Below the pieces are notes generated by a model, which saw only the letters and a program-made list of their open reading frames with translations, had not been told where the DNA came from and did no database searches. From contig NC_087078.1 in assembly GCF_026151205.1 (NCBI RefSeq), positions 7,518,675 through 7,582,674 on the forward strand: a stretch of DNA of 64,000 bases, written 5' to 3'. The position numbers were made by a program, and so were the translations under genes. Of the stretch, positions 1,327 to 62,684 are shown piece by piece. This DNA comes from Bolinopsis microptera. Lineage: Eukaryota > Ctenophora > Tentaculata > Lobata > Bolinopsidae. Each line of letters starts with the position of its first letter. The first letter of the stretch is position 1.

Positions 1327-2545
1327 CAACTGACTACAGAGGCCTGAGCCCATTAAATATACACCATCTCATTACATATTCACTCAATAAATGTGTTGTG
1401 ATTGGTTTAAAACTTGATACAACTCCTGACGTTAGCGCATCTTTTAACAACCGCTATTAAAAGTACACTAATCAGAGATCTAATCATTTCCTGATGCAGT
1501 TCGTACGTGATTAACGTACTAATGACTAGTTACATACTAAAGTATTGTTTATAAGACTCTTAATACACTATACATCTTAATGGAAAGCGGAGGCATCAGT
1601 TTATCCCATTAATAGCAGCATTACAGCAAACCACGTACATTGAACAGGACATCTTCACAAACGGAACGAAGGGACAGAGTACTTTACAACATTCACTTAT
1701 CCACTTAACTACAAAACAAACTACAAAACAAAAGAGGCAAACTGATAAAACACACCATAGTCACTGTCTTTGTAGTAGCGGCAGGTACATTCACAACGTA
1801 CCTCAAGGCTCAGTGTTAATCACGAACATCACATACGAACATAGCTAATTATAGATCACGAATAGCTGGTACAGGCTAGTGATCGGGGTATCAATAAATT
1901 CGATGGTCTTGTTATAGGTACCGCCCGTATTTACACTTAGAATCGAGTTGGAGAATTAGCCATATCATTTTCGGTAGGTAAACCACGCATACATATTATT
2001 ATCAAGACATCAGAATACGTGATATAGGGACGTAACCATTAATTGTTCTGGTGTTCAACATTCAACATTAATTTCGTGTTACACTCATACAGTTTCAATC
2101 TACTCGGGTTACCAAGACTCATTCGTTTATCGCTTACAAACAGCAAAGCAAGCACTCAGCACATTTGCTGTCCCGTGCTCACGTTTGAAGCAGCAGATCA
2201 AAAGAATAAAAGAACAATGCAAGTACGTCAGAAACAGATACGGATAATTGTAGACTGTGGCAAAATTTAATTATCAACCGCAAAATAGTGGAAAGAAACA
2301 TTCTGCAGAAGACTAATGGGTAAGCAAATCTGTACAACAATCTTCTTGGATATAAGCAGACATAAGGAGCAATCTTACAGAGCACACAGCTATGTATATG
2401 CTATATTAAATTCTTACCGCGAGCGTGACTCTCGCCTAAAATATGATTTCCCAGAAATCCTGGACGTCACGCACGCGATTCGCAGAAACTTGCAACTTCA
2501 ATGATTCAGCATGCCATATATATTATAGCAGGTCGCAACATTGAG
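1327..2545. other. No gene recognised
   Basis: AT-rich sequence with short open frames only. I see no splice-supported exon, RNA gene or clear repeat. Confidence 0.4.
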
Positions 2546-2640
2546 TTGTCACGTGTCCCTGTAAATACAGTCACGTGGGTCGTTACGCAGCCAATGATCG
2601 CGCGTATGTAGCCTCACGTGGGCTGCCCAAGCCACTGCGA
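2546..2640. promoter_or_regulatory. E-box (CACGTG) cluster with CCAAT box
   Basis: Three CACGTG palindromes at 2550-2555, 2572-2577 and 2615-2620, plus a CCAAT at 2591-2595 and CpG-containing sequence, lie within 75 bp just before the long (CT)n tract. CACGTG is the classic bHLH-zip site. The clustering suggests a promoter or enhancer, but no gene is recognised on either side, so the role is inferred only. Confidence 0.3.
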
Positions 2641-2774
2641 GATGTGCATCACGAAATGAACCGCACATGGGTAAAACAATTAGCGTAATGTGGCTGGTCG
2701 TGGCCATTTTATTGTCACGAACAACTCGGATATCACGCACGGGCTGTTATATAGGCCTGACTAAGCCGGTGCTT

Positions 2775-7920
<5,146 letters not shown>

Positions 7921-31394: not shown

Positions 31395-34300
31395 TTAGTT
31401 AGCTGGCGGCTTGTTAGCAGCAATGTCAGCGAGAATTTCCTTGTCTTCGACCACAGTGGGACCACACCTCATGTTCCAAGGAACAGATACGTCTATCTTT
31501 GCTGGATATCTCAGTCCTGAATGATGATCAAAAGCTGATTTTTCGGGTCTAGAAAAACGATAAAAGTATCACTACGTCAAAGTAATAACACTACTACAAG
31601 TATGTTGGGTGAGTAGAGAGTATATTCAGTGGCGTAACATTGCCTGTTGGCGCCCCCCCCCCCCCCCCGCCGAAAAAGCGCCCCCCTGTTGGCGCCCCCT
31701 CCCCTTTTGGCGCCCCTCCCTAAAATTGGACAAATTAGGTGATTTTAGAAGATATGCCGGTAAAATCTCTAAAAAAGTGTGTTTCTAGAGCAAAACGAGC
31801 AGTTTTGCTAGTACCTCAGTTAAGTTTTTCTAAATTGTCCCACATTCAAAGGACGATTTGGCGCCCCCCTAAGATGGCGCACAGCGGGGTCAGCGGGGCT
31901 CTACGTTACGCCACTGAGTATATTATTGAATTTCGAAATACAAAAAGTTTGCTCACCCAAGTTTTCCATGATGGTAGCAAATTCCTCCTCTGATTTCGTC
32001 AGTCTGGGATTGTACAGCTTCTCCTCTCTCACCGAGCTTTGGGTTCTTCCTGGTAGAATTATCATTAATATTACAAGTTATAAGATTGAGTAACTCTAAT
32101 ACTATTATTAGAATTATCATGATTTGATTATGAACTAATCTTTCGTGCGTGTCTCATCTAGTTATGTAGGTACACAGTGTACTTGAACATACACTCAGTT
32201 TTTTCGATAAAGACGGTTAATTTTGGCATAGGCTTCAGAGCCTTTAATTTTGACCATTTTGAAGGCTTCACCGTCTTTAAATTTGCTGGTAGAAGTATAA
32301 GGTCAAAGTGTGAAATGTGCTTTATTACATCCGATCTATTTTGAGACCTGCTGTGGCGCTGTTAATTTTGTTTTTCATTTGAAGGCTCCACCATTCTAAA
32401 GGGCGTCTTTATAGGATAAACTGAGTGCACTACATCTTGAGTTAAGTAGGTTAAAGGGCGTCTTTATAGGATAAACTGAGTGCACTACATCTTGAGTTTA
32501 GTAGGCTAAAGAGCGTCTTTATAGGATAAACTGAGTGCACTACATCTTGAGTTAAGTAGGTTAGTTGAGAAATGAGATAGGAGAAATGAGATAAGAGAAA
32601 GCTCCTAACTAAACAACTTGGTGGTCTAGCTTTGTACATTAAAGGTACCTCATTTTTCAAAATAATCTAATATGCAGCTTTCGGTTTATATTAACTCATT
32701 AAAGTGATTTGCTCATGAGAATATTTATAAACTATCGTATCTTCATTAAAGAGGAAGGGATATTGGACAAGGAATTGATGTACTTAATAACTTAACGCTT
32801 AACTTATATTTGATTGACTAAGTAATTAACTAATTAATCACCCACCCTGGTAGTCGTGAGCAGGGTACACACTAAATTCCTCAGGTAAACTAAACACTCT
32901 GCTGTGAACAGAGTGATAGAGTCTTCGTGCGTCACCCTGCTGGAAATCTGTTCTGCCACAAGCTCTTATCATCAGCGCATCTCCTGGAACAGATTCACCA
33001 TTTGTAATTGGTGCTATATTTTGTTACTTTACTGGTTATGGTGGCTTTTATATCATAACTTGTTGTTTGCATACTGCTTACATTATCCTCGACCACAATC
33101 ACAGCTCAATATGCCAGGAATGTTGTTTACCAGTGAAGCACATTCCGTGAGAGTGAAGAACGAAAGTCATACACCCGTCCGTGTGTCCGGGAGTACTCCT
33201 GGCTTCCAACTCCAGATTCCCTGTAAGATTATTTTAGAACGAAAAGTTGTTAGGATGAATCTCTAAGAGAAACTATCTGAGGTATCATATTTATTAAATT
33301 AAGAGCATGTAATTTTCAGAAAAATGGCTGCATGTTATACGTACCTATCTTAACTTTCTCGTTATCATTGAGAAACAGGTCAGCCTTTGCAGCTGATGCT
33401 TTGGAGATTATAGTCTGACAACCAGTAGCGGTACGTAGTGCAGCAGTCCCTGGGGGAATATCACGTGACTATCACGTGTTCATACGTCAGTCGTCATCAC
33501 TGAGTGAATCGACACACGAGGCTTATACAAATGAGAGGCAAGAATGAAATATGTAAAGTTTATGAACTGATAGCAATTCACCTTTCAAAATTTGCTCCTT
33601 CATAAAAAAAATTATTGATTTTTACTTTCCACACACTATTTTCAACTCACCCTGTATTGTAGTAAGCACGTTTAAACTGTAAAATAATGTACATAATTTA
33701 TCATATTATGCGCTTGACTTCTTGAGAATATACATTTTCAAACAATCAAAATCAGTAAAGGTATCGGGCTTTACTGTAGATAGAGTGTTAATAACAATCT
33801 ACCTACAGTAAAGGTATCGGGATTTACTGTAGATATAGTGTTAATAACAATCTACCTACAGTAAAGGTATCGGGCTTTACTGTAGATAGAGTGTTAATAA
33901 CAATCTACCTACAGTAAAGGTATCGGGCTTTACTGTAGATAGAGTGTTAATAACAATTAACCTACAGTAAAGGTACCGGGCTTTACTGTAGATAGAGTGT
34001 TAATAACAATCTACCTACAGTAAAGGTATCGGGCTTTACTGTAGATAGAGTGTTAATAACAATCTACCTACAATAAAGGTATCGGGCTTTACTGTAGATA
34101 GAGTGTTAATAACAATTAACCTACAGTAAAGCCCCGATTTACCGTCACGTTTGCTTTACCTGTCACATGTGCTTTACCTGTCACGTGTGCTTTACCTGTC
34201 ACGTGTGCTTTACCTGTCACATGTGCTTTACCTGTCACATGTGCTTTACCTGTCACGTGGTCAGCATGGCAGTGAGTGTTGAGAGCATATTTGAGTTGCA

Positions 34301-34706
34301 GATTTAGCTCACTGATCATCTTAACATCTCGACTGACTTTCTCGTAGACGGGGTCTATTATGGCTGCTAAACGTGTAACTCCACAGCCTGCCATGTTTTA
34401 ATGTACAGTTTAAATATTATGATCGTATTTTTTAGATCATATGATATTAATCGTGTGGAGAACAGTATCCTTAAATGAGAGTATGTCAAAATCTTGCACA
34501 TAATATTCCAAATTATGTTAATTATTAAAATGAATATTTGATGGTTACTTAAAACGAATGTTGGACCCTGTGATATGATATGAAAATTAACATAAACGTG
34601 AATAAAAATGATGTAAATAAAAAAGTAAATAAAAGGAATTACCGATTATATAAGTGTACGTACTGCTCGTTGAGTCGAAAAGCTGCCGAAATACCAGTCC
34701 TGACAT
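31395..34706 (-). CDS. ETHE1: ETHE1-type persulfide dioxygenase, complete
   Basis: Seven exons join in frame: 34643-34706, 34250-34387, 33345-33449, 33131-33220, 32846-32983, 31957-32049, 31395-31516 (750 nt, 249 residues). ETHE1 oxidises glutathione persulfide to sulfite with a mononuclear iron in mitochondrial sulfide breakdown. The beta-lactamase-fold ligands are present: 'THCHADH' (exon 2), 'STPGHTDGC' (exon 4), '[15 protein letters not shown]' and 'YPAHDY' (exon 5). The C-terminus has 'NPRLTKS' and 'VPWNMRCG'. The start ATG gives '[19 protein letters not shown]', directly at the domain, with no obvious mitochondrial presequence. Exon 2 ends in a series of six repeated donors. Introns carry a hAT MITE, a 55-bp repeat and a 53-bp minisatellite. 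All introns are phase 1. Confidence 0.92.
31627..31916. mobile_element. hAT-type MITE in ETHE1 intron 6, 290 bp
   Basis: The ends CAGTGGCGTAACAT and its inverse ACGTTACGCCACTG carry the classic hAT terminal sequence. They are flanked by a perfect 8-bp target duplication AGTATATT (31619-31626 and 31917-31924). The interior has a C-run and repeated TTGGCGCCCC motifs. Removing the element and one duplication copy leaves an intron of about 142 bp. Confidence 0.9.
32192..32428. mobile_element. Small element with CACTCAGTTT ends in ETHE1 intron 5
   Basis: CACTCAGTTTTTTCGATAAA at 32192 faces its inverted counterpart, ending TTTATAGGATAAACTGAGTG, near 32403-32428. The interior is about 190 bp. Target duplication is unclear. 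Its right end continues into a three-fold tandem repeat. Confidence 0.45.
32401..32563. repeat. 55-bp tandem repeat, three copies
   Basis: Units start near 32401, 32456 and 32511, each with GGGCGTCTTTATAGGATAAA and CTGAGTGCACTACATCTTGA. The unit contains the right terminal repeat of the 32192-32428 element, so the array looks like amplification of a transposon end with its flank. Confidence 0.9.
33755..34131. repeat. 53-bp minisatellite in ETHE1 intron 2, about 7 copies
   Basis: Unit starts at 33755, 33808, 33861, 33914, 33967, 34020 and 34073. Each unit junction contains a palindrome CAGTAAAG...CTTTACTG around GTATCGGG, flanked by TA in most copies. The last unit runs into CAGTAAAGCCCCGATTTACC, which resembles the end at 41198. 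Confidence 0.95.
34160..34254 (-). promoter_or_regulatory. Tandem array of six 5' splice donors (ETHE1 exon 2)
   Basis: An 18-bp unit, on the minus strand CACGTGACAG|GTAAAGCA, repeats six times. Every copy contains an identical GACAG|GTAAAG donor, placing candidate exon ends at 34250, 34232, 34214, 34196, 34178 and 34160. A seventh, degenerate GACG|GTAAAT follows. The unit is 18 nt, so each later donor adds six residues (KAHVTG) in the same phase, directly after the HxHxDH metal-binding motif. Confidence 0.8.
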
Positions 34707-53559: not shown

Positions 53560-54995
53560 ATGTTACGTTTTATCCTCTCTGTGTTGTCGGTTATTGCTGT
53601 ACTGTCGGGATCCACTGTCGCAGCCAGTGATAGCAGGAGTTATACAGCTCTTAAGTTTGCTTATGATGGAAATAGTTTGGTAACATATAGCCCGGACATG
53701 ACCCCCTTCACAGACAAATTTACTATTTGTGTGTGGGTTCGCAAACTCCAGTCAGGGAGAAACCCGTCCCCATTTGCTTATAAAGGTTACGAGATATTCG
53801 TGACAGATAGCGGCTACTACAACATGCTGTTTAGATCCACCTCCCTGGATGGTGATCTGATTAGCAAGTTTACCTCACCAGTAGGTACATGGTTTATGTA
53901 CTGCTCCACGTGGAGCCTCGCTTCTAGAACCTTCAGAGTCTACGTTAATGGTGAACTAGCAGGTACCCAGACCACACCTTCTGGGAGGAAGCTGCAAACA
54001 AGTGGAGCATTAACCTTAGGGAATTATTCACCAAATAGCGGTCATCATTTTGGTGGCGAACTGTTTAATTTTAACGTATACTCTAAGGAGCTGACAGCTA
54101 CAGAAGTAGCTGCCATGTCTTCAGGTGGTCTCTGTACAGAGATACCTGAACAGTTGGAGGAGTATAGAGTTATAAAGTGGGAAGATATTGTGAAGCTGAG
54201 TAGGTCTGGTACTGTGCAGGACTTCATCGACCCATTATGTGCTGATTCTGATGAACTGCAGAGGACGAGAGGAAAGCTGGAGTTAGCCGTTAGTGAAAAG
54301 AGTACTCTACAACTTTCCCTAAACAGGACGCAGATAGAACTACAGGAAGTTCAGGGGCTGTTCAACTCAACCCAGGAAGAACTAGTTGGGGTAAAGAGAG
54401 ACCTAGGGGAAATGGGAGGAGAGCTGAATGAGACAAAAAGTCAGCTTGAGGACACAAAGTTGGAGTTGGAGGATACTAAGTTGGAGTTAAAGAACGTCAC
54501 CGAGTCTAAATGTGCGCTTCATAAAGGCAACCTAACGAAGTGGGATATGTTTTATTCGCCCGCTTATTATAATAAAACATTTACTCGCCGACTATATCAA
54601 CAACTCACCACAACTTGGGACTCTATTAGCAGTAAGATATAAGCAGTATACTATAGTTAACATTATATTATATTTTATATGACAATTTATATTTATATTG
54701 ATCACTTTTGAAAAATTGATTTGTGCTTCAAAAAACACTGGTAACAAAATCGTATCTTCTAATAAAACGTACACACATAAGATATATTATAGAATACCAT
54801 TTAACTCTTGCAACATCTCAAACTCGCTCATTAAGCCAATTTATGCTATCTACATATTATTAATATTTGTAAACGAGTTCTCACTTCTCCTTTTATTCAG
54901 GTAAACTGTTTGGTATGACGATAACTGACAAGGTAATTGAGCTGATTAAAGATCTGGAGGACGATCAGATCGATCACTGCGGGGACTTATCATAA
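53560..54995 (+). CDS. Secreted pentraxin-like/coiled-coil protein 1
   Basis: Two exons: 53560-54631 and 54901-54995 (388 residues). A signal peptide (about 1-22) leads a pentraxin/LamG-type jelly-roll (about 28-210). The strand 'FTICVWVR' and the near-signature 'MYCSTWS' match the pentraxin HxCxSWxS, with Met in place of the His. 'FRVYVNGELAG', 'FNVYSKELTATEV' and 'YRVIKWEDIV' also fit. About 235-320 is a Leu/Glu-rich coiled coil with N-glycosylation sites (NRT, NST, NET, NVT), suggesting an oligomeric secreted lectin. Exon 2 encodes 'FGMTITDKVIELIKDLEDDQ' and ends CGDLS. Reading through the donor gives a shorter form ending SSKI. The donor A|GTAAGA and the acceptor CAG are strong, and exon 2 is conserved in all three copies. 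The ligand is unknown. Confidence 0.85.
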
Positions 54996-57392: not shown

Positions 57393-58828
57393 ATGTTACG
57401 TTTTATCACTTCCGTGTTATCGGTTATTGTTGTACTGTCGGGATCCACTGTCGCAGCCAGTGATAGCAGGAGTTATACAGCTCTTAAGTTTGCTTATGAT
57501 GGAAATAGTTTGGTAACATATAGCCCGGACATGACCCCCTTCACAGACAAATTTACTATTTGTGTGTGGGTTCGCAAACTCCAGTCAGGGAGAAACCCGT
57601 CCCCATTTGCTTATAAAGGTTACGAGATATTCGTGACAGATAGCGGCTACTACAACATGCTGTTTAGATCCACCTCCCTGGATGGTGATCTGATTAGCAA
57701 GTTTACCTCACCAGTAGGTACATGGTTTATGTACTGCTCCACGTGGAGCCTCGCTTCTAGAACCTTCAGAGTCTACGTTAATGGTGAACTAGCAGGTACC
57801 CAGACCACACCTTCTGGGAGGAAGCTGCAAACAAGTGGAGCATTAACCTTAGGGAATTATTCACCAAATAGCGGTCATCATTTTGGTGGCGAACTGTTTA
57901 ATTTTAACGTATACTCTAAGGAGCTGACAGCTACAGAAGTAGCTGCCATGTCTTCAGGTGGTCTCTGTACAGAGATACCTGAACAGTTGGAGGAGTATAG
58001 AGTTATAAAGTGGGAAGATATTGTGAAGCTGAGTAGGTCTGGTACTGTGCAGGACTTCATCGACCCATTATGTGCTGATTCTGATGAACTGCAGAAGACG
58101 AGAGGAAAGCTGGAGTTAGCCGTTAGTGAAAAGAGTACTCTACAACTTTCCCTAAACAGGACGCAGATAGAACTACAGGAAGTTCAGGGGCTGTTCAACT
58201 CAACCCAGGAAGAACTAGTTGGGGTAAAGAGAGACCTAGGGGAAATGGGAGGAGAGCTGAATGAGACAAAAAGTCAGCTTGAGGACACAAAGTTGGAGTT
58301 GGAGGATACTAAGTTGGAGTTAAAGAACGTCACCGAGTCTAAATGTGCGCTTCATAAAGGCAACCTAACGAAGTGGGATATGTTTTATTCGCCCGCTTAT
58401 TATAATAAAACATTTACTCGCCGACTATATCAACAACTCACCACAACTTGGGACTCTATTAGCAGTAAGATATAAGCAGTATACTATAGTTAACATTATA
58501 TTATATTTTATATGACAATTTATATTTATATTGATCACTTTTGAAAAATTGATTTGTGCTTCAAAAAACACTGGTAACAAAATCGTATCTTCTAATAAAA
58601 CGTACACACATAAGATATATTATAGAATACCATTTAACTCTTGCAACATCTCAAACTCGCTCATTAAGCCAATTTATGCTATCTACATATTATTAATATT
58701 TGTAAACGAGTTCTCACTTCTCCTTTTATTCAGGTAAACTGTTTGGTATGACGATAACTGACAAGGTAATTGAGCTGATTAAAGATCTGGAGGACGATCA
58801 GATCGATCACTGCGGGGACTTATCATAA
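57393..58828 (+). CDS. Secreted pentraxin-like/coiled-coil protein 2
   Basis: Exons 57393-58464 and 58734-58828 (388 residues). The mature protein differs from protein 1 by a single visible change (Lys for Arg in 'ELQKTRG'). The signal peptide differs at two positions and is instead identical to that of protein 3. So the 5' end of this copy shares history with copy 3 and the body with copy 1, as expected from unequal crossover or gene conversion. Same domain order, glycosylation sites and optional read-through end SSKI as protein 1. Confidence 0.85.
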
Positions 58829-61224: not shown

Positions 61225-62684
61225 ATGTTACGTTTTATCACTTCCGTGTTATCGGTTATTGTTGTACTGTCGGGATCCACTGTCGCAGCCAGTGATAGCA
61301 GGAGTTATACAGCACTTAAGTTTGCTTATGATACAAATAGTTATGTATCATATAGCCCGGACATGACCCGTTTGGCAGACAAATTTTCTATTTGTCTTTG
61401 GATAAGGCAACCGCAGCCACGAAATACTTCCCCATTCGGCTATAATAGTAACGAGTTATTCATGACAGACGACGGCCGCTACAACAGACTGTTTGGTTCC
61501 TCCTCCCTGGATGGTGATCTGATTAGCAAGTTTACCTCACCAGTAGGTACATGGTTTATGTACTGCTCCACGTGGAGCCTCGCTTCTAGAACCTTCAGAG
61601 TCTACGTTAATGGTGAACTAGCAGGTACCCAGACCACAACCTCCGGTAGGAAGCTGAACACAGGTGGAGCATTGGTATTGGGCAATAAGTATGTAAATTC
61701 AGGTCACAAATTTGGCGGCGAAATTTATAACTTTAACATATACTCGAAGGAGCTGACAGCTACAGAAGTAGCTGCCATGTCTTCAGCTGGTCTCTGTACA
61801 GAGATACCTGAACAGTTGGAGGAGTATAGAGTTATAAAGTGGGAAGATATTGTGAAGCTGAGTAGGTCTGGTACTGTGCAGGACTTAGAAACAAGATGTG
61901 ATCCTAACATTTTAGTTGAACTGCAGAGAACGAGAGGAAAGCTGGAGTTAGCCGTTAGTGAAAAGAGTACTCTACAACTGTCCCTAAACACGACGCAGAC
62001 AGAGCTACTGGAAGTTCAGGGGCTGTTCAACTCAACCCAGGAAGAACTAGTTGGGGTAAAGAGAGACCTAGAGGTGATGGGAGGAGAGCTGAATGATACC
62101 CTAGTGGAACTTAAGGGAGTCAAGAGGGAGCTCGGAGGAGAGTTGAATGAGACAAAAAGTCAGCTTGAGGACACAAAGTTGGAGTTGGAGGATACCAAGT
62201 TGGAGTTAAAGAACGTTACTGAGTCTAAATGTGCGCTTCAGAAAGGCAACCTGACGAAGTGGGACTTGTTTTATTCGCCCGCTTATTATAATAAAACATT
62301 TACTCGCCGACTATATCAACAACTCACCACAACTTGGGACTCTATTAGCAGTAAGATATTAGCAGTATACTATACTGTATAGTTAACATTATATTATATT
62401 TTATATGACAATTTATATTTTAAATATTGATTACTTTTTAAATTAACTGATTTGAGCTTCAAAAATCACTGGTAACAAAATCGTATCTTCTAATAAAAGC
62501 CAATTTATGTTATCTACATATTATTTAATATTTATATATGTTAACGAGTTCTCACTTCTCTTTTTATTCTCACTTCTCTTTTTATTCAGGCAGACTGGTT
62601 GGAATGACGATAACTGACAACTTTATTGAACTGATGAAAGAAATGGATGACGATCAGATCGATCATTGCGGGGACCTATCATAA
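61225..62684 (+). CDS. Secreted pentraxin-like/coiled-coil protein 3
   Basis: Exons 61225-62350 and 62590-62684 (406 residues). The signal peptide is identical to protein 2. The jelly-roll has two divergent blocks (about 37-92 and 138-165), separated by a block identical to genes 1 and 2 ('SLDGDLISKF' through 'GELAGTQTT'). The coiled coil carries an extra segment of about 18 residues around 'ELNDTLVELKGVKRELG'. Exon 2 is diverged but keeps the reading frame and the ending 'DDQIDHCGDLS', which supports the splice model. The read-through stop of genes 1 and 2 is mutated (TAA to TTA), so an unspliced form would end differently. Confidence 0.85.

Follow-up and report, generated by a model that had tools for sequence, protein, structure and literature searches.

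Tandem repeats that straddle exon–intron boundaries have been described in human segmental duplications, where, in the passages of that report drawn on here, boundary minisatellites lead to new introns or to repeats that are retained in young paralogues (PMC2812944). The array described below likewise is a minisatellite at an exon–intron boundary that could alter splicing; unlike the human cases in those passages, each of its units holds both an exon tail and a donor, its host, ETHE1, is a conserved enzyme gene of which one copy was found, and arrays built in this way occur on further genes of one genome. Tandem splice sites of the NAGNAG and GYNNGY types provide a second counterpart, with closely spaced competing sites that produce in-frame length changes, as those of ETHE1 would (PMC8055015, PMC2423196, PMC2279118, each cited for selected sections), and the cited section of PMC8055015 describes minor tandem sites as mostly weak and ascribes them to noise. 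Unlike such pairs, ETHE1 carries six identical sites, 18 nt apart, that derive from tandem duplication. It shares with tandem splice sites the close grouping of alike sites with standard dinucleotides (six GT donors), and its 18-nt pitch lies outside the spacings of about 2-12 nt that a survey of tandem alternative splice sites reportedly covered. Zhuo et al. are said to have described, in 2007, intron gain by tandem duplication. Duplication of a segment containing AGGT is able to create introns (PMC4974935, in the part cited), and the ETHE1 array likewise consists of tandem copies of an AG/GT junction (the slash marks the exon–intron boundary throughout); unlike in intron gain, no new intron appears to be implied, the spacing is 18 nt, and the copied AGs, inspected by eye, lack a pyrimidine tract. 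No report of arrays with an exon tail and a donor in every unit was found in the parts of the open-access literature consulted.

ETHE1 is a sulfide-detoxifying gene, and its homolog in the ctenophore Bolinopsis microptera lies within a 64,000-nt stretch of contig NC_087078.1, C7 in the contig numbering used below, which was analysed as a whole and is referred to here as the window. On the basis of homology and GT-AG ends, the gene was assigned seven coding exons on the minus strand (31395-34706; Table 1), encoding 249 amino acids without stops, and its internal introns are phase 1 throughout with GT-AG ends. The best PDB match of the protein is human ETHE1 (4chl, E 2.7e-85), Pfam Lactamase_B matches with an E value of 2.1e-16, and the family motifs, including HxHxDH, are present in an intact frame; among the 25 matches listed from NCBIfam, a prokaryotic library, none rose above the cut-off. 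The alignment with human ETHE1 begins at residue 4, and an additional 5′ exon may lie upstream of the ATG, since the latter is preceded by an acceptor-like ...TTTTTAG. One copy of the gene was found in the 264.65-Mb genome, seven of seven matches of the protein lying inside it, and no array-free paralogue that could serve as an ancestral control was found among the protein matches across the genome. When spliced at the first donor, the protein aligns with the human persulfide dioxygenase (PDB 4chl) without a gap through the metal motif and across the junction, the unusual part here being the donor of intron 2 only.

Table 1. Coordinates of the ETHE1 coding exons and of the tandem arrays at the start of intron 2 (window positions)
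Feature	Positions	Strand	Basis
ETHE1 coding exon 1, ATG at 34706	34643..34706	-	homology, GT-AG ends
ETHE1 coding exon 2, HxHxDH motif, ends at donor 1	34250..34387	-	homology, GT-AG ends
Six 18-bp units CAYGTGACAG/GTAAAGCA, one donor each	34152..34259	-	TRF and sequence comparison
Degenerate seventh unit, donor GACG/GTAAAT (34143), U1 pairing -5.5	34134..34151	-	sequence comparison
Second minisatellite, ETHE1 intron 2, 7.2 copies of a 53-bp unit	33753..34131	-	TRF and genome search
ETHE1 coding exon 3	33345..33449	-	homology, GT-AG ends
ETHE1 coding exon 4	33131..33220	-	homology, GT-AG ends
ETHE1 coding exon 5	32846..32983	-	homology, GT-AG ends
ETHE1 coding exon 6	31957..32049	-	homology, GT-AG ends
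ETHE1 coding exon 7, with stop	31395..31516	-	homology, GT-AG ends

Coding exon 2 ends in six identical ACAG/GTAAAG donors on the minus strand, in frame and at a pitch of exactly 18 bp, whose last exonic bases lie at 34250, 34232, 34214, 34196, 34178, and 34160; these positions confirm the six identical donors that an earlier note on this DNA had reported. Each unit combines 10 nt of exon tail with 8 nt of intron, and the array thus crosses the boundary: the exon end reads ...CAC GTG ACA G/GTAAAGCA, and the unit repeats start at CACGTG. The sole difference among the six units is a C or T at one CpG, the silent third base of a His codon, which reads C T T C C T from unit 1 to unit 6. The same note had placed every donor in one phase, which holds for the six, whereas the seventh, spaced 17 nt from the sixth, runs into a stop and is therefore out of frame with the others. 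Including this copy, the array spans 34134-34259; TRF gives it a score of 203 (18 bp x 6.7, 95% matches), and its unit length and copy number are those of a minisatellite (units of roughly 10-100 bp, at least three copies). Twenty dinucleotide shuffles of the window yielded one array in total (period 10-70, at least 2.5 copies), with a score of 43 versus the real 203. Throughout the 264.65-Mb genome, an exact donor pair at 18-bp spacing occurs at five overlapping places, all of them at this locus, and, when up to two mismatches are allowed, the 18-bp unit occurs at 49 places as against 18 for the same word reversed, its six exact matches being the ETHE1 array. Near matches of the unit (L064-L067) were judged by eye only, and two of them, at C5:6399737-6400202 (L064) and C12:10410803 (L065), are 16- and 19-bp arrays with a CACGTGACAGGT-like core away from ETHE1.

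Intron 2 is 800 nt long, of which the 53-bp minisatellite fills 379 nt and the donor array 112 nt. The 53-bp unit of its second minisatellite holds an 11-bp inverted repeat (CTACAGTAAAG and CTTTACTGTAG); the possibility that this repeat is a dispersed element was ruled out, as all 10 of its genome matches fall at the ETHE1 locus. Elsewhere in the window, an 18-bp unit (GTTTGGGCTGTAGCCAAG) is present in 28 copies at 822-1326, and three tandem gene copies about 3.83 kb apart (53560-54642, 57393-58475, and 61225-62382) encode an apparently secreted protein, the first copy, on which the search was run, containing a Laminin_G_3 match. The word CACGTG is over-represented across the window, with 22 sites, including 33462 and 33473 outside the array, as against a mean of 5.9 and a maximum of 11 in 50 shuffles.

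Computed joins to exon 3 show that donor 1 yields the ordinary protein and donors 2-6 add one to five copies of the hexapeptide KAHVTG; all six joins are stop-free, and HVTG is recreated before exon 3 in each in-frame isoform. Among the best 80 of 162 prokaryotic relatives, no protein has extra residues inserted anywhere after positions 51 to 88, and a gap occurs only at residue 82, in two of them. One relative (L076) was modelled with AlphaFold from a 28-sequence alignment (mean pLDDT 89.7); in that model the point of insertion, which follows residue 68, lies within a helix (63-76) behind HxHxDH. The hexapeptides would accordingly enter a helix next to the active site in this model, and not an active-site loop as had been suggested. 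His79 of human ETHE1 is presumably the first His of the HxHxDH-type motif here. The iron ligands of the human enzyme are His79, His135, and Asp154 (PMC12926118, in the excerpt cited). Because the family length accommodates no insertion and the site falls inside a modelled helix, donor 1 would be required for a normal enzyme, and forms with extra KAHVTG are likely damaged.

The six donors, with A at +5 and G at +6, are of middling strength, each pairing with U1 at -8.8 kcal/mol on a scale where the six donors of the ETHE1 gene range from -5.3 to -10.1 and a perfect site reaches -14.5 kcal/mol. The canonical U1 5′ end, on which these energies are based, was found in all eight U1 loci read, out of 10 genome matches. 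Predicted accessibility is also alike among the six donors, at 0.12-0.34 depending on site and window, with donor 2 the highest, and their predicted openness is well above the regional median. Masking of some donors by RNA structure was considered and dropped, accessibility not placing donor 1 first. Given equal U1 pairing and similar predicted accessibility, no computed property therefore singles out donor 1. U1 is cited as covering 23 + 12 nt (PMC6002489, in the section used here), more than the 18-nt pitch, so that adjacent sites would not both be bound and at most every second one could be occupied.

A genome scan for places where three donor words lie close together located sister arrays on other genes. 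One of them follows a urocanase exon (L060, G000:C1:24323700-24330000, about 1471-4786) that ends in FPEELVTYGGNGQ and, with the next exon joined, matches Urocanase_N (E 2e-29) and aligns with PDB 6uek without a gap over the junction. Behind this exon stand 94 copies of a 35-bp unit in which 11 nt of intron are joined to 24 nt copied from the exon tail (exact when compared with the copy three units on). The first donor is CCAG/GTTAGG (-7.9), and 44 of the 94 units carry CCAG/GTAAGG (-11.8), which pairs better with U1; with boundaries set at fixed 35-nt steps, the first of the 95 is the only one from which the frame stays open into the following exon. A few kb downstream, on the same strand, the urocanase core domain has three matches, the sole ones found in the genome; two are stop-free and one spans two TAA codons. 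In RAB23, a P-loop exon (L156, G000:C1, from 22077418) ends in GNGAVGKSSMIQ and, joined to the next, has Rab-23 as its best PDB match (E 1.2e-22), gapless across the junction. Behind it come 32 donors (31 with GTAAAG) spaced 19 bp apart except for a single gap of 26, and donor 1 is the only one of the 32 tested that keeps the frame. The copied exon tail comprises 17 nt in RAB23 and 10 nt in ETHE1 (up to two mismatches). The last RAB23 donor is stronger (-11.6), and later copies in the sister arrays are overall equal to or stronger than the first.

Two further arrays possibly abut exons. At L055 (G000:C1:12061700-12066900), a 24/25-bp CAG/GTGAG array stands right behind what may be the end of an exon, itself located downstream of a LIM-domain ORF; the LIM match is the upstream ORF, the candidate exon is without a match, and only 2 nt of exon recur. 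At L164 (G000:C7:19457560-19458100), an open frame for which no homology was found ends in TTCAG/GTAAAG and runs into a donor array with a period of 21-24 bp. In total, the flanks of 16 arrays, ETHE1 included, were inspected, comprising nine of nine among the listed CAGGTRAG-triplet matches and seven of eight among the listed CAGGTAAAG matches (C9:8061163 left out); two of the 10 arrays listed for CAGGTGAGT are covered, and none of the eight listed for CAGGTAAGT. In this set, an exon confirmed by homology stands at the start of three arrays (ETHE1, urocanase, and RAB23), a possible exon at that of two, and no exon was recognised in 11. A Pfam scan at seven of these loci, which took in 148 of 168 ORFs (at least 40 aa and on the strand of the array, with low-complexity ORFs removed beforehand), produced two matches, both weak (E 0.0009 and 0.0018); L162, L163, L165, and L166 were inspected by eye only. 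On C8 (7268823-7269127), the unit of a 37-bp array, GTAAGT...TTATTTCAG, resembles a miniature intron with both splice signals.

Donor words are over-represented in the tandem arrays of this genome, with counts dominated by a few long arrays. Three CAGGTRAG in a row occur at 912 places versus 99 for the reversed word, CAGGTAAGT at 170 versus 0, CAGGTGAGT at 89 versus 7, and CAGGTAAAG at 141 versus 57. When neighbouring places are grouped by eye, the 99 of the reversed word fall into 10 arrays genome-wide, and the first 100 of the 912 matches, covering C1 and 1 Mb of C2, into nine. Word abundance in the window, a small background, does not account for the excess, the counts there being 2 versus 1 reversed and, for a shorter word, 7 versus 9; a count of 15 versus 2 was inflated by U1 genes among the loci, and isolated donor words inside array loci, a biased set, number 9 versus 0. 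The excess may reflect donors seeding arrays, or the purging of arrays elsewhere in genes.

Taken together, the ETHE1 array is probably a boundary-spanning minisatellite of which donor 1 is mostly used, the other donors being tolerated decoys with at most minor use. A tandem duplication across the exon 2/intron 2 junction, taking in 10 nt of exon and 8 nt of intron, may have been the starting event, and slippage or unequal exchange could have expanded it to six or seven units next to the 53-bp minisatellite. The spliceosome would then pick donor 1 in most cases, and donors 2-6 would be decoys of minor use at most. Support for this reading comes from the sister arrays: if the urocanase and RAB23 genes are functional, as is assumed here, their first donors must be used, and since donor 1 alone is open there despite later copies of equal or greater strength, donor 1 of ETHE1 is read as the one used. 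All three arrays would be explained most simply as minisatellites across a boundary that persist by virtue of first-donor choice. The in-frame pitch (18 = 6 x 3) would have arisen by chance, making leakage less harmful in ETHE1 than in urocanase or RAB23, as only the 18-bp pitch is in frame. With pitches of 18, 19, and 35 bp, one of the three exon-abutting arrays is in frame, and the period is divisible by 3 in nine of the 23 tandem arrays of the window (ETHE1's included), so that an in-frame array at ETHE1 is no sign of selection; moreover, an 18-mer of the local composition is stop-free with a probability of about 0.66.

Appreciable use of several donors (say more than 10% together), adding 6 to 30 residues as splicing noise, is unlikely. 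It would be consistent with six identical donors of equal U1 pairing and similar predicted accessibility, and with joins that are all in frame and stop-free, so that nonsense-mediated decay would not mask the products. Tandem sites are also common in human genes, where the minor site is usually at least 10-fold below the major one (PMC8055015, section cited); against such leakage, the insertion would fall in a conserved, modelled helix, and in human genes selection disfavours in-frame tandem sites where the protein is structured (PMC2279118, section cited).

That the array acts at the level of DNA or pre-mRNA, as a cluster of E-boxes (CACGTG/CATGTG) or as a set of U1 sites speeding splicing, appears very improbable. 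E-box words are present in all six units (CACGTG in units 1, 4, and 5; CATGTG in 2, 3, and 6), and arrays with a CACGTGAC core exist elsewhere (16-bp on C5, 19-bp on C12); the E-box role is opposed by the window-wide enrichment of CACGTG (22 sites, shuffle mean 5.9), by the coding nature of the copied sequence in ETHE1, and by the absence of CACGTG from the urocanase and RAB23 units. An E-box cluster as the main function of the array was therefore rejected, the word being common in the window and missing in the sister units.

Even less credence is given to a length tuner, in which repeat number and donor choice would adjust an active-site loop under selection. The shared phase, the open frame, the restoration of HVTG before exon 3 in all in-frame isoforms, and unit differences that are silent only would suit such a device, whereas the absence of an insertion in the best 80 of 162 relatives, the position within a helix in the L076 model, the confinement of variation to one CpG C/T, and the non-coding nature of the urocanase and RAB23 arrays past donor 1 all speak against it. 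Of the two readings offered in the earlier note, a tuner or a neutral array spliced at its first donor, the conserved length, the position inside a modelled helix, and the sister arrays favour the second and not the first. Similarly remote is the use of donor 6 as the main site, which would give a normal protein with 30 extra residues: of two comparable competing donors, the one nearer the intron is taken to be preferred (PMC6002489, section cited), and the out-of-frame seventh donor has decayed, as this choice would suggest, whereas the conserved length of the ETHE1 family and the inability of downstream copies in urocanase and RAB23 to code run counter to it. Tandem repeats are a known cause of assembly errors, and an artefact is nonetheless hardly conceivable, the array being about 125 bp, presumably below the usual read length, with units that carry the C T T C C T states and a degenerate end.

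Returning to the preferred reading, in which donor 1 is mostly used, first-donor choice in three arrays fits awkwardly with the intron-proximal preference, which would predict donor 6. The title of a 2010 paper by Hicks et al. reportedly states this preference between donors. The mechanism of choice among equally good donors is stated as not known in the cited section of PMC6002489. It is conceivable, and put forward here with more doubt than confidence, that 5′ splice sites seed minisatellites repeatedly in this genome and that splicing keeps the exon-adjacent first donor in spite of dozens of identical or stronger copies further on, the reverse of the intron-proximal rule. If so, the arrays of ETHE1, urocanase, and RAB23 would amount to three natural measurements of a first-in-line rule, with all six outcomes visible in mRNA in the case of ETHE1. 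Each ETHE1 donor leaves a distinct in-frame mRNA, and RNA-seq would therefore read the choice directly; more broadly, real exons that carry 6, 32, and about 94 near-identical donors in a row offer a natural test of donor choice. Their recurrence suggests that minisatellites can erode the ends of exons, with the gene surviving if the first copy is intact and chosen.
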